A DNA stretch of 64,000 bases. Source: Benincasa hispida. Taxonomy: Eukaryota > Streptophyta > Magnoliopsida > Cucurbitales > Cucurbitaceae. Position numbers and translations under genes: made by a program. The first letter of the stretch is position 1, and each line of letters opens with the position of its first letter. Under the pieces are notes generated by a model, which saw nothing but the letters and a program-made list of their open reading frames with translations, had not been told where the DNA came from and did no database searches. Where the stretch lies: the NCBI RefSeq assembly GCF_009727055.1, contig NC_052351.1, forward strand, positions 55,877,422 through 55,941,421, read 5' to 3'. Shown one piece after another: positions 10,313 through 33,449 of this stretch.

Positions 10313-10958
10313 TGTTGGGCCTGCTTCTTGTTGAATGTATTTTAAAAGCCCAAATGATGATTCCAGTGGTCCTGTTTTGCTAATCCAATTCGTGAGCCCA
10401 AGAATTTTGGTTTGGTAGAGTTCTTGGCTATTGTTTGTCCACGAACTTCCAGATGATATGTTCCACATGGTTCGCTCCACTAACCCTTGCCTGATGGAAG
10501 TGAAATGAAAACTTTATTCTGATAGAAATTTGTACAGAATTAATTTCTCTCTCTCTCTCTCTCGTTCTCTCTTTCGATATTGCAGAACTTCTCTAACCCT
10601 AATCTTTTGTTTATTCTGTGTGACTGCTTGAGTAAACGATTGGTGATAAAGAGCATGCAATCTTGTAGAAGAAAAGAGGAAGAAGAGTTCTATACAACAA
10701 TATACGTGTTCGGCAAAATGATGCCTATATCCACGGGAAGGAGGGGAGATCTTATTCAAGAGCTAAGTCACAGTTTTTCTTTTTACAAATTTCAAGCTTT
10801 CTTGAAGCTTTTGTATATTGTTGTATATTACAAAATTTGTAAATGATGAGTATTTATACTATTTTTCTTATACAAGTAGTTACAATAACAACCTGTAAAA
10901 AGTTAAAGAAATGTGAACATCTGTTGAATATGTTGAATGTTTGAGCTTATTTACTTCA
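10313..10958 (-). repeat. 3' LTR of the 10.3-15.8 kb copia element
   Basis: 646 bp. It contains a (TC)n microsatellite at about 10543-10563 and matches 15100-15760 throughout, with scattered substitutions and small gaps such as a 15-bp stretch near 15194 absent here. Confidence 0.9.
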
Positions 10959-11014: not shown

Positions 11015-14000
11015 TCACCCTTTTTCAGAAAGTTGGAAGCTGAACTGACCAAGACAATTTGCTAGCTTGAGTTTAGATATAGGTTTGATAAGCATGTCAG
11101 TTGCATTTTCGGTGGTATGAACTTTAAGCCCTTCGACTTCTCCTTTCCCTATTATGTCTCTTACAAAGTGATATTTAATATCTATGTGTTTGGTCCTTGA
11201 ATGATATTGAGGGTTTTTGGATAGGTGAATGACACTTTGGTTATCACAGTAGATCTTTACTACTGTTTGATTAATACCAAAGTCCTTCATCAACCCTTTT
11301 AACCACAATGGTTCTTTTATTGCTTCTGATAAAGCCATATACTCTGCTTTTGTGGTTGATAATGTTGTGATTGACTATAAATTTGCTTTCCAATACAAAA
11401 AATTAGGACCAAATAAGAATAGATAACCTGTTAATGATCTTCTTTTGTCTTGGTCACCTGCAAAATCTGAATCAACATATCCATATAACTCTAAATTTGT
11501 TTCATTAGTACTTTGATATGTTAATTTTTACTGTTTAGACTAAATTAGATATCTTAAAATCCTTTTTTTTTTTTTTTGCTTCCCAGTACCTTTTTCTAGG
11601 GTTAGACATGTATCTACTAACAAGACTAGTGTTGTATGATAGGTCTAGTCTAGTAGATATCATTAGGTACATTAGACTCCTTAGTGCTTGATTGTATGGA
11701 ATTGATTGCATTTGAGTCAAATGTTCTATGTCTGTTTCTTTTGGTGAGTTTTTCTGAGGAAAGTTTAAAATGATTAGCAATAGGTATAGTGACTGGTTTT
11801 GCATTAGACATATTAAATCTGTTAATTACTTTTTCACAGTAGCTTAAATGACTAACGGTTAGAGTAGAAAAAGCTCTGTCTCTTTGAATTTCAATCTCAA
11901 GGATCTTTTTAGACTGACCCAAATCCTTCATGTCAAATTCTCTCTTTAGGAGATTTTTTACATGAAATAAATCCTCCTTAGATTTCCCTGCTAGTAGCAT
12001 ATCATCAACATAAAGTAGTAGATAGACTTTGTCCTTATAAGTAGTTGAATTAATATAAGAACAAATATCATAAGAACTTCTTTGAAATCCAATACTCTCT
12101 ATGTAGTCATTAAACTTTCTGTACCAACATCTAGGGGATTGTTTAAGACCATATATAGATTTGTTTAGGAGACAGTATAGGTCTTCCTTCCCTCTTTCTT
12201 CAAACCCTGTAGGTTAAACCATGTAGATAACCTCTTCTAGATTTCCATGAAGGAAAGCAGTTTTAACATCTAGTTGATCTAGTTCAAGGTTGTACTGAGC
12301 AACTAGAGATAAAAGAAATCTAATAGAGGTTTGTTTTACTACTGGTGAAAAATTTTCAGAATAGTCTATGCCTTCCCTCTGAGTAAACCTCTTAGCCACT
12401 AGCCTTGCCTTATACCTAGGCCTTTCTTCTTTGGTAAAACCCTCCTTTAGTTTATATATCCATTTAGAGGCTATAGGTTTGCATCCTTTAGGAAGAGGGG
12501 CTAGGGTCTAAGTATTATTGACAGTGAGTGATTCCATTTCTTCACACATATCTTAAATCTAAGACCTAGCATTAGGACAGTTTACTGCCTCTTCAAAAGT
12601 GGCTGGTTCTTGGTCATTAGGAGCTATTGTGGCATTTAGGACTAGGTTCATGTAATTAGTTTCAGTATACCTAGCTGGAGGAACTATCACTCTTCTTTGT
12701 CTATCCCTAGCCAAAGAATACTGACTTAGATCAGGTACAACTTCAGTATTCCTAGTATGCTCATTTGAGTTTTCCTTTTCTTCTTCTTCAGTTTCATTAT
12801 GAGGGTTATGGCTAGTGGAAGAATCTTTAGGTGTCTCCACCTCAATCCTAGCAGCATTAAGGCTATTAGGAACTTCATAAGTTGTCTTTTCTTTTTGCAT
12901 AAACATCTCTTTTTCTCTGAAAGTGACATCCCTACTTATGACAAACCTTTTCTCAATAGGATTCCATATCTTAAAGCCTTTGACACCTTCTGAGAACCCA
13001 ACAAACATACACTTTACTGCCCTAGACTTTAGTTTCCCCTGATTTTGGTGAATATAGCCAACACATCTAAATACCCTTAGATTTTCTAGGTTAGGTGGAT
13101 GTGTGGTCCATTTTTCTTCAGGAGTTAGAAAGTTTAGGGAGGAATGAGGACACCTATTTAAGGTGTACATAGTTTAGCTTGCTGCCTCAGCCCAATATTT
13201 TTCACTAAGGATTACATCTGAGAGAAGACATCTAACTCTTTCCATGACTGTTCTATTTAGTCTTTCAGCTACTCCATTCTGTTGAGGAGTGAATCTAACA
13301 GTCCTATGCCTAGTTATTCCTATTTCTTTATAGAATTTATTAAACTCTTCACTACAAAATTCCAGTCCATTGTCAGTTCTTAGGTATTTAATTTCTTTAG
13401 AAGTTTACTTCTCTATCATGAGTTTCTATTCCTTAAACCTATCAAACACTTGGTCTTTAGTTTTAATGAATTAGACCCAACTTTTTCTAGAGAAGTCATC
13501 AGTAAAAGAAAGTAAATACTTTGAGCCACTTAGACTAGGTGTAGGAGCTGGACCCCATAGGTTAAAGTGTATATAATCTAGGATAGCTTTTGTGGTGTGT
13601 TGTGCTTTAGTGAAACTTTGCCTTGTGGCTTTTCCTAAAGCACAGTGTTCACAAAAGGTTAGATTTTCTGAGAGACCTTTAAGTAGAATCCCTTATTTAG
13701 ATAGGACTTCTAGGCCTTTAGCACTAATGTGAGATAACCTTTTGTGCCAAACATCAGCCTCTGTGATCTCATTTGTGGTGGCAACATATGCCCCTGTCAT
13801 CATTTCAACTCCTTTGACCACAAATAAGTCATTTATCTTTTCCCCAACTAATATCACCTTAGAATCCTTTAGCACCTCAAGGGTTCCTCTTTTACCCCTG
13901 TACTCACACCCAATTGCATCTAGCATACCTAAGGAGATTAGATTTCTCTAAAGAAGTGGAACATATCTCACATTCCTAAGGAGTTTAATAGTTCCATCCT

Positions 14001-20574: not shown

Positions 20575-21526
20575 ATGGCAATAGCCACGTTATCGTTGTT
20601 AAGGACTGAAAAACTTACTGGCGATAATTTCACAACATGGAAATACATGATCACGACGATCCTAATCATCAAGGATCTCATGTTTGCTCTCACGGAGGCT
20701 TGTCCTCCTATTCCAGCTCTAAATGCCGCTCGAAATGTTCGAGAGGCATACGAGCGATGGACAAGGGCGAATGAGAAGGCTTGAGTCTACATCTTGGCAA
20801 GTCTTTCTGAAGTCTTGGCCATGAAACATGAGCCTATGGTCTCAGCACGTGAGATTATGGAGTCCCTGAGAGGGATGTTTGGAAAATCGTCTGAACAGCT
20901 TATGCATGAGGCTCTTAAATACAAATTCAACTCCAAAATGGAAGAAGGCACCTCTGTTCGTGAACATGTGCTAAACATGATGGTCCACTTCAATGTGGCA
21001 GAGTTGAATGGCTTTACCATCGATGAGGGCAGCCATGTAAGTATAATCCTGCATTCTTTGCTGGAAAGCTTCCTACACTTTGTTAGCAATGTGATTCTTA
21101 ACAAAATGAAATATAACCTTACAACTCTCCTCAATGAGTTACAGACATACCAATCTTTACTGAAAAGTAAGGAGAGGCAGAAGGGTGAGGCAAATGTTGC
21201 TTCATCCTCTAGGACATTCCATAGAGGTTGGACCTCAGGAACAAAGTCTGCATCTTCTGCTTCTAACTCTGCAAAGGGGAAAAAGAAGAAGGGTGGTAAG
21301 GGTAAAAGGAAGGCCCCTGCTAACCCACCACTTATCGCCCCAAATAGGCGTCCACAAGTTGCTAAGGGAAAGTGTTGCCATTGCAACCAAGATGGACACT
21401 AGAAGAGGAATTGTCCTCGGTATCTGAAAGAGAAGAAAGTAGCCAAGGCTAAGGCCAAGGCAGATAAAGGTAAATGTGATTTACTTGTGCTTGAAACTTG
21501 TTTGATGGAGAATGATGATTCTACAT
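20575..21526 (+). pseudogene. Family R copia gag with zinc knuckle, two stops
   Basis: The ATG at 20575 starts MAIATLSLLRTEKLTGDNFT, with the gag motif TGDNFTTWKYMI. One frame continues through a TGA at 20782-20784 and ends in a CCHC zinc knuckle (CCHCNQDGH then stop then KRNC) at about 21379-21420, the stop (TAG at 21400-21402) falling where a Trp is common. Between them lie a helical capsid-like region and a Lys/Gly-rich linker (KGKKKKGGKGKRK). This protein would form the particle shell and bind element RNA. Only two nonsense codons break it, and both could come from single-base changes. Confidence 0.85.
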
Positions 21527-22187
21527 TCAGGTGCCACTAATCATGTTTGTTCTTCTTTTTGGGGGATTAGATCTTGGCGACGGCTGGAAGCTGGTGAGAT
21601 GACGATGCGAGTAGGCACTGGGCACGTCGTCTCAGCTCTGTCTCTTATACACATCTAGATGTGTATAAGAGACAGGTGTAATTTCTAAACTAAAAAGGAA
21701 CCTTATTTCTGTAAAGTGTTTATTGCAATGTAAATATACTATCTCTTTTAATGTGAATAAAGCGTTTATTCATAAAGATGGTGTTTTTATTTGCACAGCA
21801 AATCTGGAATCAAATTTATATGTGCTAAGGCCATTAGCCATTAATTTCCTCCATAATACTGAAATGTTCAGAACTGTCGTAACTTAATCAAAACGTCGAC
21901 GAATTTCTTCAAAAGAAAATGCCCAACTTTGGCATCTACATTTAGGGCACATCAATCTCAATAGGATTGAGAGATTGATGAAGAATGAACTTCTAAATGA
22001 GTTAGAAGAAAATTCTTTACATGTGTGCAAATCTTGCCTTGAGGGTAAGATGACTAAACGACCTTTTCCTGAAAAAGGTTATAGAGCCAAGGAGCCTTTT
22101 GAGTTAGTATATTATGACCTTTGTGGTCCTATGAATGTGTGAGCCCAAGGTGGCTATGAGTATTTTATTAGTTTCACTGATGATTAC
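21527..22187 (+). pseudogene. Family R pol start: protease, pre-integrase and integrase start
   Basis: The retropepsin-like motif SGATNHVCSSF is near 21528, followed by MRVGTGHVV. After an adapter sequence (21638-21675) the pol reading resumes with KRNLISVKCLL, then LWHLHLGHINLNRIERLM (pre-integrase) and LVYYDLCGPM...FISFTDDYS (integrase, first Asp) before the nested element at 22188. Around 25 expected residues are missing at the adapter. Frameshifts and stops are present. Confidence 0.8.
21638..21675. other. Nextera mate-pair junction adapter (sequencing artefact)
   Basis: Positions 21638-21656 read CTGTCTCTTATACACATCT and 21657-21675 read AGATGTGTATAAGAGACAG. These are the 19-bp Tn5 mosaic end and its exact complement, placed head to head with no spacer. 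This 38-bp palindrome is the junction left by circularised Nextera mate-pair libraries. It is synthetic and does not belong to the plant. The pol reading frame on either side does not join across it. Confidence 0.97.
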
Positions 22188-24225
22188 TGATGACGGGAAA
22201 TTATAAGTCAAATTATTCAACAACTAAAATCCCGTGGACGCAATATGCGATGCATGTTCTTAAGATATGCATTGATAGTCATGCGTCGATGGTCATGCCT
22301 TAGAATGATTATCGTTAACAAATGTATGCGATGACCATGCGTCCTGTCACAAGTTTTCTTGCGTTCACGCCAAGTATAACGCGAACGCAAGTTTCTCGGG
22401 TGATTCGAGGTCGAACTTAGGGACTTGTAGCAAAATAAATGCGGTAATGTGCATGCGGCAGTTTAAATAAAAGAATGATGGAGGGGTTTCTAAGTTAACA
22501 CTACTTCTACTCCTAACTAGCAGATAACACAATGAGAATATGCATGAGAGGTAGAGATACGACAACACTTGACATGAAACAAATGAATGGGAAAATAGAC
22601 AAAATGCGGAGATATTTTCATTGCAATACTTAAGAGTGACCGCAAGAGCAACCTTAGTCAATGCAAGTCATGCGATCATGCTACACACACTAAAAGCCTA
22701 AATCTAGGACATATGTGGTGGGTATGCATAGTGCTGAGATGACTGCATACAACCACCATATCCTACTTCCTCGATGCATGCAATATCCCGTCCGTAGGGT
22801 GCATTTGCTGCGTGAAAGCAAATAGAGCTTATCTCTAAGATCCCCATTCTTGCCTATACGTTCCAATCCGCTCTCCCGAGTCTTAGATTTTGGTTTTAGA
22901 CTACTCTTCCAAGTATGCCTAAATGATGAATGATGCACTCATAGAACAAGGTACCCGTGTTTCTATCCTTAGTGAACAATGACTTATATTACTTAATGCG
23001 ACCAACCACTTACCCTCCCAGGCAGTTGGTTGTTGCTGACTTTACTCATAGACAAGTAATGTGTTAGCCTATAAACAGGCGTTGCCGCAGCTTCATACTA
23101 AGCAAATAAGGTTTTCTTATATACTGGTACAACACACACCTCTCGGTGGTTTGCTACATGCTTCATATCCCTAATCCACATGACTAAGCACCCGATACCC
23201 AAGCAATCTCACTAAATGTTGCAATGAAAGTAAAGATACTAAGCAAAAAAGATGGAGATGGAGTCGAAGGAAACAGAGAAGTGCATTGAAAACAAATTGC
23301 ATTAATTCCTTAATCATAAAATGTTATACAATACAATATAAGAAAAGAAGGGGAAATGAAATGACCGGCTGGAAGCAAAGACTTGCTTCCAGCAGATGTG
23401 CATCAAGGCTGCCGGTGGTGCCATGGATGAGAGGTGGAGCTAACTCTCCCGAGATCTAGCTCCGATCGAAGGCTCCAAGGATCACGCGGAATGGATGAAG
23501 GAGGTGAAGAACTCTCAAGCGTCTCCTCACGCATTTTGTCTGGATCACAAGGATCCGCCCTAAGCGAACCTCAAGTGACAAACTTGGATAACTTGAATTT
23601 TTGCTCATCGACTTCTATTTATAGAGCTTGGGTCATCGACAACATTAACGGACTGCTCTGAGTCTGACATTCGGCGCGTTAGTCCTTTTCTTAACCTCTA
23701 TCGCTAACGGCGTGGTAGGTGAAATGTCAGCATCAGCTTTTGATTTTCTCAAGGTAGATGCGTTGATGCGTTCATTCCACCAATCTTGCATTGATCCCAT
23801 TAGTATACATTATCGCATAGTCGCAATCATTCAGTGATCGAATTAGCTTAATACCGCAACTCTACACAATGATCGCAATTGCTTGACGAGCGCAATTCCC
23901 ATGCGATGAACACATGCGGCTGATCACCGCAATATCCATGCGTTGATCGAATGCATTTGCCTTTGCGATGGAAAGTTTCTCCGCATGCAGTCGTCTATGC
24001 GATGGTCTGGTTTTCGCACCTGTGTCCACTTCCTGTATTAGTTACAAAAATAGAACATTGAACACATAATAACGTATAATAATGGGTTAGCCGAGATTCA
24101 TCATGCTGATCGACGCAAACTCATTTTCTCATGAATTCCTAGTACAATTGCCGTATATTCTTCTTAACAATCTTCATAATTCTAAGTAAAAGGCCTAAGA
24201 TAACATGCATTTCTGCATGTCTTCA
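22188..24225 (-). repeat. 3' LTR of the non-autonomous element
   Basis: 2038 bp. Rich in short CpG-containing words (ATGCGATG, ATGCGTTGATC, CGCAATC), above all in 23780-24010. Matches 25721-27782 along its length with a 30-bp gap near 22958 and point differences. Confidence 0.92.
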
Positions 24226-25720
24226 CACTCCCAAACTTAAAATCATGTTTGTCCTCAAGCATGCATTATACTCAAGAAATTCTAACTCACCTTCATGCTT
24301 TCCTTTGGGATGACCAGCTTTTCAGAATATAATTTACACACGCCTCTGCCGATCACCGCAATGCTCTCCTCCACTTTGGCTGCTTCTTCAAAAAGATCTT
24401 TTCTAAGTTTAAATCCGGCAAGCCTTTGCTCAAAAACTTTTTATTCATTCACCGCAATTTTGCGTTTAGCTTTTAAGAATGCGTTCGTTAAAATAATTCA
24501 AAACTTTGCGATGACTTATTCAAATGCAGCGTTGAACCTGGTTATGCCCTTCGTTTTGGCTTAGCCCCACGTGTGTCATGCGGGCATCCAACTTTTTTTG
24601 CATTCCATATTCAATTCAACTCTTGTCTTGCTTGTTTTGGCTTGTGTCGGATAGAGGAGTTGTGCGTATGCGTTGATCCTGGCAACTCACTTTCGTTTTG
24701 GCTTGCCCCCACGTGTGTCATGCGGACATCCAACTATGGGTGAGTGCCTTTCAAAACTTAACTCTTATCAACGTGGGTTTTCCCATTGCGTTGACAATGG
24801 AGTTATTATTCTCAAAAACTGACTTCATTTTTTTTTTCCAAACGATCACAATGCAATGAACGCAATTCTCTGAGACCGCTGCCACCCCTAAACTTAGAGT
24901 TTGGCAGCATTCTCACCGCAGAGCTAAGAACAAAATTACAAAAATGTGGTAATAAATGTTTGAACAAAGGTTTGCACAAAATAAAACTTAAGACTTTCAA
25001 AATTTGAAAAAGCTAATAAAAGTAAAGAATGTCTTGCGTTGATTAGTTAGAAGATGCGGTGAACTATACGTACCATCATAGAAACATCACAAAACAATGC
25101 AATCAGGAAAGAAAGAATTTCAAAAGGATAAGGCATACAAGATAACGGGAAAAGACCTTAGGCGGAACAACGCATGTGATCATGCGTTGGAATCCATGCG
25201 ATTGAAGCCATGCATTGATCGGTGAAAGAAATTCTTCCATTGAACTACGAACGAAGGAGACTTATTGTCGTAACTGCCAGGAACAATCGCACCACAACCA
25301 AGGAAGCAGCCATATGTCCAAAATAACAATAAACATAAAAATAACCTATACTAAGAAAGCAAGTTAAAGATAGAGTAGAAGATGTCCCTAGAAAAATAGG
25401 AATGTTGTCACGTAAGGAGTATTCCATGCAGGAGATGGCTCTCAACTGCTTGGGTCAAGTTGCCTTGACCATTGGAACTTCCGGCAATTGTTGGGTTCAT
25501 GTTGGCCACCATGTGCTTAGAATTACCTTCAGCTCTTCTGCGACTGATTGCCCTTCTACCTTAGGGTCAATACTGGCTTCCAGCGTCTCACCTACACTCC
25601 AATATTGTTTGTAACCTGGTCGCACAAGTTGCAACACTCCCAAGATAAAAAGTTTGCTCGCAGAGACACAAAACTTAACAAACAATTAGCTGCCAAGTCC
25701 CCGACAATGGCGCCAAAACT
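24226..25720 (-). other. Internal region of the non-autonomous element
   Basis: No retroviral-type domain is recognisable in any frame. A block of about 45 bp with GTTTTGGCTT...CACGTGTGTCATGCG is present twice (about 24555-24595 and 24692-24733). The purine tract is at the left end and the primer site at the right end, so the signals for reverse transcription remain. Confidence 0.75.
25698..25715 (-). other. Primer-binding site of the non-autonomous element
   Basis: On the minus strand it reads TGGCGCCATTGTCGGGGA, five bases inside the LTR. The TGGCGCC start matches the primer sites I know from Athila/Tat-type gypsy elements, usually described as complementary to tRNA-Asp. The tRNA assignment was not checked. 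Confidence 0.7.
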
Positions 25721-27782
25721 TGGTGACGGGAAATTAGAAGTCAAATTATTCAACAACTAAAATCCCGTGGACGCAATATGTGATGCATGTTCTTAAGATA
25801 TGCGTTCAATAGTCATGCGTTGATGGTCATGCGTTGGAATCATTATGCGTTAACAAATGTATGTGATGACCATACGTCTTGTCACAAGTTTTCTTGCATT
25901 CACACCAAGTATAACGCGAACGCAAGTTTCTCGGGTGATCTGAGGTCGAACTCAGGGACTTGTAGCAAAATGAATGCGGTAATGTGCATGCGACAGTTTA
26001 AATAAAAGAATGATGGAGGAGTTTCTAAGTTAACACTACTCCTACTCCTAACTAACAGACAATGCAATGAGAATATGCATGAAAGGTAGAGATACGACAA
26101 CACTTGACATGAAACAAATGAATGGAAAAATAGATAAAATGCGGAGATGTTTTCATTGCAATACTTAAGAGTGACCGCAAGAGCAACCTTAGTCAACGCA
26201 AGCCATACAATCATGCTATACACACTAAAAGCCTAAATCTAGAACATGTGCGGTGGGTATGCATAGTGCCGAGATGACTGCATACAACCACCACTTCCTA
26301 CTTCCTGGATGCATGCAATATCCCATCCGTAGGGTGCATATGCTGCATGAAAGCAAACAGAGCTTATCTCTAAGATCCCCATTCTTGCCTATGCATTCCA
26401 ATCCGCTCTCCCGAGTCTTAGATTTGGGTTTTAGACTACTCTCCCAAGTATGCATAAATGATGAATGATGCGCTCATAGGACAAGGTAACCGCATGAACT
26501 TTGCTGACCTAAGATTGTTCCTATCCCTAGTGAACAATGACTTACATTGCTTAATGCGACCAACCACTTACCCTCCCAGGCAGTTAGTTGTTGCTGACTT
26601 TACTCATAGACAAGTAATGCGTTAACCTATAGACAGGCGTTGTCGCAGCTTCATACTAAGCAAATAAGGTTTTCTCACATACTCGCACAACGCACATCTC
26701 TCGGTGGTTTGCTACATGCTTCATATCCCTAATCTACATGACTAAGTATGCGATACCCAAGCAATCTCACTAAGTGTTGCAATAAAAGTAAAGATGCTAA
26801 GTAAAGAAGATGGAGATAGAGTCGAAGGAAACAGAGAAGTGCATTGAAAACAAATTGCATTAATTCCTTAATCACAAAATGTCATACAATACAATATAAG
26901 AAAAGAAGGGGAAATGAAATGACCGGCTAGAAGCAAAGACTTGCTTCCAGCGGATGTGCGTCAAGGCTACCGGTGGTGCCATGGATGAGCGGTGGAGCTG
27001 ACTCTCCCGAGATCTAGCTCTGGTCGAAGGCTCCGGGGATCACTCGGAATGGATAAAGGAGGTGAAGAACTCTCAAACATCTCCTCACGCATTTTTTCTG
27101 GATCACAAGGATCCGCCCTAAGCGAACCTCAAGCGAAAATCTTGGATAACTTGAATTTCTACTCATTGGCTTCTATTTATAGAGCTTGATCGCCGACAGC
27201 ATTAATGGACTGCTCTAAGTCTGACATTCGGCGCGTTAGTCTTTTTCTGAGCCTCTGCCGCTAACGGCGTGGTAGGTGAAATGTCAGCATCAGCTTTTGA
27301 TTTTCTCGAGGTAGATGCGTTGATGCATTCATTCCACCAACCTTGTGTTGATCCCATTAGTATGCGTTATCGCATAGCCGCAATCATTCAGTGACTGCAT
27401 TCACTTAATATCGCAACTCTACACGATGACCGCAATCGCTTGACGAGCACAATTCCCATGCGATGGACGCATGCGGTTGATCACCGCAACATCCATGCAT
27501 TGATCGAATGCGTTTGCCTTTGCAATGGAGAGTTTCTCCGCATGCGGTCGTCTATACGATGGTCCGATTTCTGCATTTGCGTCCACTTCCTGTATTAGCT
27601 ACAAAAATAGAACATTGAATGCATAATAACGTATAATAACGGGTTAGCCGAGATTCATCATGTTGATTGATGCAAACTCATTTTCTCATGAATTCCTAGC
27701 ACAATTGCTGCATATTCTGCTTAACAACCTTCATAATTCTAAGTAAAAGGCCTAAGATGACATGCATTTCTGCATGTCATCA
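25721..27782 (-). repeat. 5' LTR of the non-autonomous element
   Basis: 2062 bp, starting TGGTGACGGG and ending GTCATCA. It has the same CpG-word-rich composition as its partner at 22188-24225. A related third copy begins at 63288. Confidence 0.92.
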
Positions 27783-27787
27783 ATTAC

Positions 27788-28220: not shown

Positions 28221-29268
28221 ATGTGCTTGAGGCTAATCCCAAGAAGGGGGGATGGGGGGGAAACCCCCCACCGGATGGGTTATGTCCTCTTGTTAGGCTA
28301 CCCCAAAGTACACGAGGGGTTATTTTTTATGATCTAAAGGAAAATAGGGTGTTTGTTTCAAAAAATTCTAGTTTCCTGGAGGAGGATCATATAAGGGAGC
28401 AAAGTCACGAAGCAAAGTCGTGTTGTGTGAGTTTCCAATGAAACTACTAAAACTTCAACAAGAGTTATTGAAGAGCCTGCTACATCAACAAGAGTTATTG
28501 ATAGGAGTTTATTCAGTAGGTCGGTTCCAACCTCAAGAGTTGAAGGAACCTCGACGTAGTGGGAGGGTTGCAAACTCACCGTTCGATATCTAGGTTTCAC
28601 GAAATCCTTGCTATGGTAGCAGATGGCGATGTTGAGGATCCATTGTCTTATAAGAAGGTAATGGAGGATGTTGACCGGGATGGCGACGTTGATAAACCTT
28701 GTGTCCTACAAGAAGATCATCAACACTTCAGTAGTCTTCTTAAGACTTGTAGTAGACGTTATCCTACTCATTGGGAATTATGTAGGTCTACTGACTGCAG
28801 TTAAGAACTGGCTCGCGACCCAATTCCAAATGCAAGATTTGGGAAAGGCTCAATTTGTTCTAGGTATACAGATCTTTCGGGTCGTAAGAACAAAGTGCTA
28901 GCACTGTCTCAGGCACATCGTACATTGACAATAAGTTGCTCAAGTACTCGATGTAGGACTCCAGGAGGGGCTACTGCCTTTTAGGACATGGAGTCACTTT
29001 GTCTAAGGAAATGTATCCTAAGATGCCTCAAGAGGTTGAGGAGGTGAAACGGATCAGTCTAAGGCCATTTTAATGTTGCTGACTCGTTTTACGAAGGCTC
29101 TCACAGCTACAGTGTTTGAGGGTCACCTACAGAGCATGGGTCTACAGGATCGCCCGTGTTGGACTAGGGCAAATGGGAGATTTTATTGTACTGGGCTTTT
29201 TATGCCTAGTTTATTGTTTGTACTAAGTTTTGTGTACACCCCACTTCGCTTTAGGACAAGTGGGAGAT
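28221..29268 (+). pseudogene. Family R RT and RNase H remnants with large deletions
   Basis: Pieces only: the post-integrase segment GVIFYDLKENRVFVSKNSSF (about 28315-28375), the RT end FQMQDLGKAQFVLGIQIFR (28820-28880) and the RNase H end TRFTKALTATVFEGHLQSMG (about 29078-29140). The RT active-site region and most of RNase H are gone. A G/C run at 28246-28269 (G6-AT-G8-AAA-C6) sits where coding sequence is expected. The purine tract before the 3' LTR is intact. Confidence 0.8.
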
Positions 29269-31401
29269 TGTTGGTGGATTGATGCCAATAAAGTTCGTGT
29301 CCTCGTAGTTTGTAAACAGTAGTGTTACGAACGCTTGTGTTGTTAATATAAGATATTTACTTCACATCTTGTATTTTGCTCGGTTACATGTTTTATTTGC
29401 TTTACCACAAACCAATAAACATAAAATCCCTGGTTATCTGTAATGTGACTCAAGCATGTATGATTGGTGACATACAAGTGGAACATGTCTTGAGTGATAA
29501 CCAAAATGGTCTGTAGTATATGGATATAGGTTTATCCTGGTAACGCTACAGATGCGACACGCTTTGTGGAATGGTTACAAATGTTGTGACTTGTCACAGA
29601 TGGCCTGATCCTGATCATTCTGTTGGGACATGCGAGCGGGGGCGTCCTATACAAAGAGTTTGTATAGACCTGACCACGAAGTGTTAATGTCTCGTTATAT
29701 AACACGTGATGATGAGAGACTTCACTTCACTAGGATGACCATAGGTAACATGACTCAATCCTGAGTGAGTTGGGAATTCCTACCATTAAGGGTGGTCCTT
29801 TGATTTGTATGGTACGAGATGGCCAATTCGCCGATTCAAATCTACCATTTTGGGGATTCGTCTGATATTGGGAGCTGGAACTCAGCTACACACAGATGGA
29901 ATTCACTCCTTCCCGAGGCGGGGTAAGTAGATATATGGCTCCTTAAGGGCTGATTCCAGGGATAGAACGATGTGGCGCCACACACCTTCTCTTGGCCCGA
30001 GAGGTATTTACACATAGTTGGACTATGTTGTATTGTTTCATTAGAGGAATCAATGATACTTAAGGAGTGAGATGTAACTACAGGGACAAAACGGCAAATT
30101 GGCCCAACTGTACTTACGAACATCTATGAAGGGTCATCGTACTCATGATTGGTTATATCCAATGGACACAGAAATATATCTGTGGTAAGAAGAGTTCAGC
30201 TGTTGGTCTTTAGTGGAATCACTGACAGTTAACGGATGGTGGATCTCGTAGCTAAAGAGTTTAGTCAGCTATTCACGTACCGTTGGAGCTTCGAGCCACA
30301 GGTCCATTAGGTCCCCTGGGTAGCTTGGATAAAAGTCAAGAACCAGTATTTGGGTTATCTGAAATGTTCAAATTCACAAGAGGAAGTTCAATTATATATG
30401 ATATAGTTGGTTTGGTTAATTATATATGATATAATTGCAAAATGTATGAATACATTATTTTGGAAAAAATTAGATATAAATATGATTTATATCAAGTAGA
30501 GGAGAAAATACTATAGTAGATATATGATATCAAACTATAGGATTATAAATATAATATGATATATATTATTAATTAATTAATTGATTAATTATATGATAAT
30601 TAATCTTTTTTCATGTTTGGACGTGGATTAATGGGCAACGTCGATTATGGTAACTGATGGTTAAAATGAAAATAGTTTTCATTTTTGAATTGTTCAATCG
30701 ATAGTCGTTCAATCGCCCAAAGAGAATTCGTGAAGCGTGCGTTGGTGAAGAAGACGATCGCTCGAGAGCCTATACGATAGTCGCTTCTCCGCCTAGAACG
30801 ATCGTCCACCTCGGCTAATGATCGCACACTGTCGCCTAGACGATCAGATAGCGTCTCTAAATGATCGTATAGTATGCCGATTTAGCTAAACGATCTTATA
30901 CCTTTTCCTAAACGATCGTTCAGCAAATCCTACATGATCGTGTAGCTCCTGTATGCGATAAGCACTTCTGCTATACGATTGCATCGTTTTCTCTCCCACT
31001 TGCTTATCGTCTACACGACTCGTTGTTCTTCCATCCTCTACAAAATTCACCAAAGCCCACCCTTTGGGTTTTCACTCCGAGAATACCCAGGGCTCATTAG
31101 TGGTGGTGTCGATCCCGTTGTGGTCGTGAGTTCGCATTGATCATGTTGCTGCAGTCGACGATTTCCACCGAGCCTTGGTAGAACATTTGGAGGGTTCGAT
31201 GCGTTGGAGTTCCAGAGATTGAAGATAGTCTTCAACTGGTATGAAACTCTATCTTCTTATTATTTATCTTGTTCTAAGCATGCCGATAATTAGTATTTGT
31301 TTGCATAACTATATATTGAATGTATATATTTGTATTTCGGTCACTGTGAGATCGGAGTGATCCGTACGTGCTCATGGAACTCTTAAATATGAGATCCTTC
31401 A
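29269..31401 (+). repeat. 3' LTR of the family R copia element
   Basis: 2133 bp, paired with 17622-19762. It has many single-base gaps relative to the left LTR at 29440-30110, but is identical at 30132-30357. It ends CCTTCA just before the duplicated target CTTCA. Confidence 0.92.
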
Positions 31402-33449
31402 CTTCAAACTTTGGAACTCAACGCAGTGAAAACCTCTACCCGATCAACCAATGCCCGACAGATGCATCGACTGCAGCATCACGAACAACCGTGAACTCAT
31501 GAGCTCAATGGGGACGACACCACCAGAAAAGAGCCTCGGGTATTCTCGGAGTGAGAACCCAAGGCGTGGTCTTTGGTGAATTTGGTAGAGAAAAAAGAAA
31601 GAACAGATCGTGTAGGCGATAAGAAAGTGGGAGAGGAAAAGATGTTATCATATAACAAGATGCTTATCATTTAGGAGAAATTACACGCTCGTTTAGATTT
31701 TACTGAACGATTGTTTAGGAAAAAGTATACGATCGTTTAGTAAACTTGGCACACTATACAATCGATTAGGGAAGCTATCCAATCATATAGGAACTAGCGT
31801 GCGATCATTTAGGCACGAGGTGGATGATCGTTTAGGCACAGAGCGACTATTGTATAGGCTCTCGAAATTAAACGAACGATTACTTTTCACACCAACGCGC
31901 ACCTGCGATCTCTTTTTAGACGAACGATTCAAAATGAAAACCAATTTCATTTTAATTCATCGGTTACAATAACCAATGCATTCCCATTAACACACGTCCG
32001 AACGTGATTTTTGGCTTAATTATCATATAATTAATCAATTAAAATATTAATAAATATAATCATATTATATTTTTAACCTATAGTTTGATATCACATATCT
32101 ACTATAGTATTTTCTCCTCTACTTGATATAAATCATATTTATATCTAATTTCTTCCAAAATAATGTATCTCATACATTTNATATCACATATCTACTATAG
32201 TATTTTCTCCTCTACTTGATATAAATCATATTTATATCTAATTTCTTCCAAAATAATGTATCTCATACATTTAGTCAATTATATCATATATAACTAACCA
32301 GTCCAATTATATCATATATAATCGAACTTCCTCTTGTCAATTTGAACATTTCAAGTTAACCCAAATACTGATTCTCGACTTTATCCAAGCTACCCAGGGG
32401 ACCTAATGGACCTGTGGTTTGAAGCTCCAATGGTGCGTGAATAGCTGACTAAACTCTTTAGCCACAAGATCCACCATCCGTTAACTGTCAGATATTCCAC
32501 TAAAGACCAATAGCTGAACTCTTCTTACCACAGATATATTTCTGTGTCCATCAGATATAACCAATCATGAGTACGATGACCCTTCACAGATGCTCGTAAG
32601 TACAATTGGGCCAAATTATCGTTTTGCCCTATAGTTACATCTCACTCCTTAAATACCACTGATTCCTCTAATGAACAATACAACATAGTCCAACTAGGTG
32701 TGAGCACCTTTCGGGCCAAGAGAAGGTGTGTGGCGCCATATCATTCAAGCCCTGGAATCAGCCCTTAAGGAAGCTATCTATCTACTTACCACTGCCTCGT
32801 GGAAAGAGTGAATTCCATCTTGTGTAGCTGAGTTCCCAGCTCTCAAATTAGACGAATCCCCAAAATGGTAGGTTTGAATCGGCGACCTGGCCACTCGCAC
32901 CCATACTAATCAAAGGACTGCCCTCAATGGCAGGAGTTCCCAACTCACTCAGGATTGAGGTCATGTTACCTATGGTCATCCTATTGAAGTGAAGTCTCTG
33001 TCATGAACGGTGTTATATAACGAGACGTTAACACTTCGTGGTCAGGTCTTATACAAACTCTTTGTATAGGACGCCCCCGCTCGCATGTCCCAACACAAAT
33101 GATCAGGATCAGGCCATCTGTGACAAGTCACAACACTTGTGACCATTCCACAAAGCGTGTCGCATCCGTAGCATTACCATGATAAGGTTTTCCTCCTATA
33201 TCCATATACTACAGACCATTTTGGTTATCACTCAAGATATGATCCACTTGTGTGTCACCACATACATGCTTGAGTCACATACAGATAACTAGGGATTTTA
33301 TGTTTATTGGTTTGTGGTAAAGAAAATAAAACAAGCAACTGAGCAAAATACAAGATTTGAAGTAAATATCATATATTATACAACACAAGCGTTGGTACAA
33401 ACTGTTTATAAACTACAGGACACGAGACTTTAGGGCATCAACCCCAACA
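31402..33449 (-). repeat. Solo LTR of family R, main piece (continues from 17442-17621)
   Basis: Reverse-oriented copy of the family R LTR, ending CCCCAACA (complement of TGTTGGGG). Together with 17442-17621 it gives a complete LTR with no internal element sequence and short flanking repeats (GTCTT/ATCTT), so it is a solo LTR left by LTR-LTR recombination. The full copia element inserted into it later. It contains the assembly duplication at 32088-32272. Confidence 0.85.
32088..32272. repeat. Exact 92-bp duplication around a single N (assembly join)
   Basis: Positions 32088-32179 and 32181-32272 are identical, separated by N at 32180. The other family R LTRs have this segment once. This is the mark of two contig ends that overlap but were scaffolded with a placeholder base. 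Confidence 0.93.

Follow-up and report, generated by a model that had tools for sequence, protein, structure and literature searches.

A palindromic 38-bp sequence in a wax gourd Copia element, almost certainly an untrimmed mate-pair junction adapter

A perfect palindrome of 38 bp lies within a Copia-like reading in a 64-kb stretch of DNA from wax gourd (Benincasa hispida); this whole stretch is called the window below, and all coordinates refer to it unless a locus or contig is named. The question that the locus raises is whether the palindrome belongs to the plant at all and, if it does not, how it came to stand between two parts of one retroelement, and at what cost to the sequence around it.

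The palindrome and the element that it interrupts

Positions 21638-21675 consist of two inverted 19-bp Tn5 mosaic ends that abut without a spacer (21638-21656 and 21657-21675), and they match the 38-mer of the Nextera mate-pair junction exactly, with no mismatch. The 38-mer is its own reverse complement, and we assign the feature no strand; its identification draws on the exact match and on the recurrence within its own assembly described below. Each half has the sequence of the mosaic end (19 bp) used in engineered Tn5. The palindrome occurs at a single place in the window, and no exact mosaic end lies there outside its two halves; a third mosaic-end-like place (12157-12175) carries three mismatches. 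With up to three mismatches allowed, the 38-mer had no match in 100 dinucleotide-preserving shuffles of the window, and an exact search of the window with a typed set of other kit adapters found none. The adapter has one frame (21640-21675) without a stop on either strand, which translates to VSYTHLDVYKRQ, a peptide that is a common artefact among predicted proteins; its last 11 letters gave no match in a literature search.

Domain matches support the view that the host of the adapter is a decayed Copia retrotransposon. On the plus strand, a Copia gag reading upstream (20785-21402, with the matching frame at 20785-21399) matches PF14223 with 31 bits (cut-off 27), and a gag_pre-integrase reading downstream (21888-22142, with the matching frame at 21888-22139) matches PF13976, gag_pre-integrs, with 49.7 bits (cut-off 28.4). 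Between these lie the two flanks, also on the plus strand and delimited by translation and by comparison with other copies: the left flank (21563-21637), in which the Copia reading is cut by the adapter and ends MRVGTGHVVSA at 21637, and the right flank (21676-21887), in which it goes on in a different frame with VISKLKRNLISVKCLL from 21678. The two short pieces adjoining the adapter (25 and 69 residues) matched no Pfam family, and the loss at the site was therefore measured on DNA copies. Further downstream, the Copia element is split by a nested LTR retrotransposon (22188-27782) with direct repeats of ~2 kb (22188-24225 and 25721-27782, 91% identical), bordered at each outer edge by the pentamer ATTAC (22183-22187 and 27783-27787); by eye, a Copia-like reading picks up again beyond it.

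A search for copies with a stretch of the window, in which the best 40 of 8445 candidates were scored, gave at least 39 other copies (its 41 rows also include a match of the window to itself and an opposite-strand match of the adapter), and 19 of these 39 were fetched and compared. In all 19 the flanks are collinear and equally oriented, separated by 52-64 bp (61 bp in 12 copies, 60 bp in three, and 62, 64, 53 and 52 bp in one each), and the adapter is missing at the corresponding point in every one. The site has thus lost about 61 bp, or 20 codons and one base, and gained 38. A first-pass annotation of this DNA had assigned both flanks to one copia protein with about 25 residues missing between them; the two readings at the adapter and the two Pfam matches bear out the assignment, and the distances in the copies bring the loss closer to 20 codons.

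Mean identity to the copies is 89.7% for the left flank, against 88.8-91.2% among the copies themselves, and 93.2% against 92.2-94.6% for the right flank. A join of two different Copia copies is not needed to account for these values: on average, the divergences are those expected of a single copy, and the same two loci (L149 and L142) are closest on both sides. The left flank is nonetheless somewhat odd, since the window's best left-flank relative (90.6%) falls just under the best-relative range of the other copies (90.7-92.8%) and since positions 21500-21549 are 72% identical to the copies. The copies form an almost unresolved star, and the divergences hint only weakly at a single copy.

Recurrence of the junction

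The assembly from which the window is taken (912,946,352 bases in 1791 contigs) matches the 38-mer at 10,759 places with at most two mismatches, and a reversed-pattern control gave no match. This density, approximately one junction per 85 kb, corresponds to 0.75 expected per 64-kb window, and at least one is expected in 53% of such windows if the spread is even. Elsewhere, the exact 38-mer was found in genome contigs (at least 120 stretches), in seven viral stretches and in five of 72,556 plasmid records; 50,697 phage records and 5,426 complete E. coli genomes gave no match. By hand count, 19 prokaryote assemblies carry it among the matches listed. Records titled as chromosomes also contain the junction (CP051244.1, CP017948.1 and NZ_CP051236.1, with loci among L025, L101, L115 and L120), and these three are among the genomes that represent their species. 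Lone mosaic ends numbered three beside 56 junctions in the fetched wax gourd loci, some of which overlap, and 38 beside 154 junctions in the other fetched loci.

Because the 38 bp match the adapter exactly, recur at 10,759 places in their own assembly and have exact copies in unrelated prokaryote assemblies, we conclude that they are almost certainly an untrimmed Nextera-type mate-pair junction adapter that was carried into the consensus, and hence an assembly artefact. The first-pass annotation had read them in the same way, as two head-to-head mosaic ends without a spacer, and had held that any claim of a natural palindrome or terminal inverted repeat would be wrong. Both points stand, the second also because none of the 19 Copia copies compared has the 38-mer at the corresponding place.

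The published protocols are consistent with this identification. The NextClip paper describes a Nextera mate-pair protocol in which a 19-bp biotinylated adaptor is added to each fragment end and circularisation joins both, and a search of the reads that asks for 18 of 19 adaptor bases, or for 34 of 38 bases of a pair; a clinical sequencing paper prints the identical 38-mer as that study's own circularisation adapter. The window's assembly is very likely that of wax gourd B227, which, according to its description (PMC6856369), was built with ALLPATHS-LG from paired-end data plus five mate-pair libraries of 2 and 8 kb, followed by PBJelly with PacBio reads. A point on the other side is that the main text of the same paper nowhere mentions Nextera and leaves the mate-pair kit unnamed. 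A later long-read wax gourd assembly, pf3 v1.1, is described in PMC9905507. A literature search for adapter or misassembly in the present assembly returned no such title among the matches listed. The window itself contains only two N, at 32180 and 15266; the one at 32180 falls where the repeat 29265-31404 recurs in inverted form, and approximately 95 bp of that repeat (30440-30534) are represented both before and after this N, as would be seen if a gap had been closed imperfectly.

Origin of the join

How, then, would an adapter come to replace part of a Copia reading? In the artefact reading, which we hold to be almost certain, the two Tn5 mosaic ends of a tagmented fragment were joined on circularisation, and the joint was left untrimmed in the reads. 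A small gap would have been located in the repetitive Copia element; one mate-pair read may have covered the left flank plus adapter, and a read of another molecule the adapter plus right flank. Either at assembly or at gap filling, both reads would then have been overlapped through the common palindromic 38 bp, and the closure of the gap would have put the adapter in place of the ~61 real bases. Within the artefact reading, we believe that the gap was probably closed in this manner, by reads that overlap through the palindromic adapter; we infer the involvement of two molecules, and likewise the joining program.

The other junctions bear on this point through the offset between their flanks. 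We compared 53 junctions with the other fetched loci, in equal orientation, which detects offsets inside loci of ~2-3.7 kb and the window only; 20 had an offset, 10 gave partial matches only and 23 gave none, and the offsets at L129, L158, L167, L168, L171, L172, L173 and L179 draw on one or two diverged copies. Sixteen of the 20 fall within about 310 bp. Ten of these are negative: about -215 bp at L131, -178 at L173, -158 and -55 at L177, -96 and -17 at L134, -76 at L169, -19 at L154, -17 at L180 and -10 at L158. Six are positive, namely +1 at L171, +61 in the window, +152 at L129, +297 at L167, +308 at L172 and about +310 at L174, where one diverged copy each underlies the values at L129, L167, L171 and L172, and those near +300 (L167, L172, L174) may reflect repeat copies of unequal length. 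The remaining four (L168 and L179) measure at least 514 bp, and a middle piece is displaced there. If reads of different molecules that end in one gap overlap through the palindrome, positive as well as negative offsets of up to a few hundred bases are expected; circles alone would give negative offsets, and two cuts close together on the same molecule would leave positive offsets or short duplications. At most of the 20 sampled junctions (of 53) with an offset, some bases appear to have been lost, duplicated or moved in addition to the presence of the adapter. Another copy of the Copia family carries two junctions 47 bp apart (L134:2496-2618), whose flanks overlap by 96 and 17 bp when set against other Copia copies. 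At L128 (C1:9706), the two flanks match different places, and no single row holds both.

We lean slightly towards extending the same reading to the ~10,800 junctions as a whole: these may be false joins in which the palindromic adapter served as a universal overlap, each of them a patched gap that hides a small deletion or a false tandem duplication, with unrelated places occasionally joined. The scale of such false joins would be ~61 bp lost in the window and 10-215 bp duplicated at ten other junctions.

For the mechanism at this site, we rank ligation at the bench second, after overlap through the adapter. Two neighbouring Tn5 cuts in a single molecule, approximately 61 bp apart, would have released a small piece that was lost, and the larger fragments would have been ligated to one another, so that the assembler would have read a real chimeric molecule. 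This would explain the collinear flanks and the small loss, and some trace of it might be seen in the seven of 152 junctions that share 5-10 bases at both flank ends (L002, L003, L013, L058, L071, L081 and L105), which is more than we would expect by chance; one of them (L058) shares exactly 9 bases, the length of the Tn5 target duplication. However, such ligation is unable to yield the overlaps of 17-215 bp at other junctions, a chimeric molecule would be rare relative to the true reads, and no 9-bp direct repeat is present at 21638-21675, where the flanking 9-mers differ. We thus consider it unlikely. A 9-bp Tn5 duplication as the general origin of the junctions was likewise rejected, with only one exact 9 among the 152.

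A more doubtful proposal, raised as a possibility in the first-pass annotation, takes the flanks for opposite ends of a single mate-pair fragment that was circularised. Such an origin matches the definition of a faithful junction read, and direct flank copies in circle-like order do occur elsewhere. They were seen at 24 of 50 junctions on contig C1, with an inverted match at one (this sample is non-random, being the first junctions listed on the first 6.1 Mb of the contig, with L152 dropped as a duplicate of L129); exact 20-mers at the same 50 gave 19 direct and no inverted matches. Exact 25-mers gave 44 circle-like and no inverted matches among 139 scored junctions (139 of 159, including L128-L131 and the window, with 20 omitted for short flanks or N), and shared 16-mers 41 direct and five inverted among 152, where the flanks could include a neighbouring adapter, itself inverted. 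At the present site, however, a circle would place the right flank upstream, whereas 19 of 19 copies place it 52-64 bp downstream, and neither flank has a second copy in the 21 kb upstream or 42 kb downstream within the window. The fragment could still have run between two different copies of the element, but its ends would then have to match within about 60 bp. The proposal thus fares poorly here. Fold-back through the palindrome was rejected as well, in view of the inverted matches at only one of 50 junctions (24 direct) and at none of 139 with exact 25-mers.

Circles may nonetheless have been read around in other places. At L168, L178 and L179 the right flank matches ~0.3-1 kb upstream, and at C1:2861251-2861789 (L163) four junctions stand at an exact spacing of 167 bp with an identical 129-bp unit between them, like a cycle that the assembler walked several times; all of these look like read-around circles. 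The L163 array could be mistaken for a natural tandem repeat.

That the 38 bp are genuine plant DNA, a natural palindrome or terminal inverted repeats, is suggested by the perfection of the palindrome and its single place in the window, and is close to inconceivable for a sequence that equals a laboratory adapter letter for letter, recurs in bacterial, viral and plasmid records and is missing from 19 of 19 Copia copies at that point. Insertion of a transposon was rejected too: there is no 9-bp direct repeat, and the site is not intact (52-64 bp lost).

Consequences and comparison with known systems

The locus thus holds no new biology, and the 38-bp palindrome is not a real plant feature. For users of this published vegetable-crop reference, the approximately 10,759 adapter junctions are a warning about data quality, and we suggest that they be masked before palindrome or MITE searches, gene models or structural-variant calls are made on the assembly. 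If the false-join reading is true, gene models, repeat annotation and structural variants based on the assembly would carry the signature of the junctions.

The closest known counterpart is the Nextera mate-pair junction (circularisation) adapter, which shares all 38 bases with the window's 38-mer without any difference in sequence, and which is likewise made of two head-to-head 19-bp mosaic ends with no spacer. The two differ in setting: the Nextera adapter stands between far fragment ends, whereas the copy in the window has collinear flanks and is part of an assembled consensus. Compared to Tn5, from which the mosaic ends are known, the window's 38 bp have neither the transposon body nor a 9-bp duplication, and ~61 bp are lost there. 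Identical 38-bp sequences lie within contigs of Enterococcus sp. 10A9_DIV0425, Ideonella sp. MAG2 and Scytonema tolypothrichoides VB-61278, and at some adapter remnants in other public assemblies the flanks are directly duplicated; unlike the window, these adapter-carrying comparison assemblies, with at least 120 stretches in all, are those of prokaryotes.
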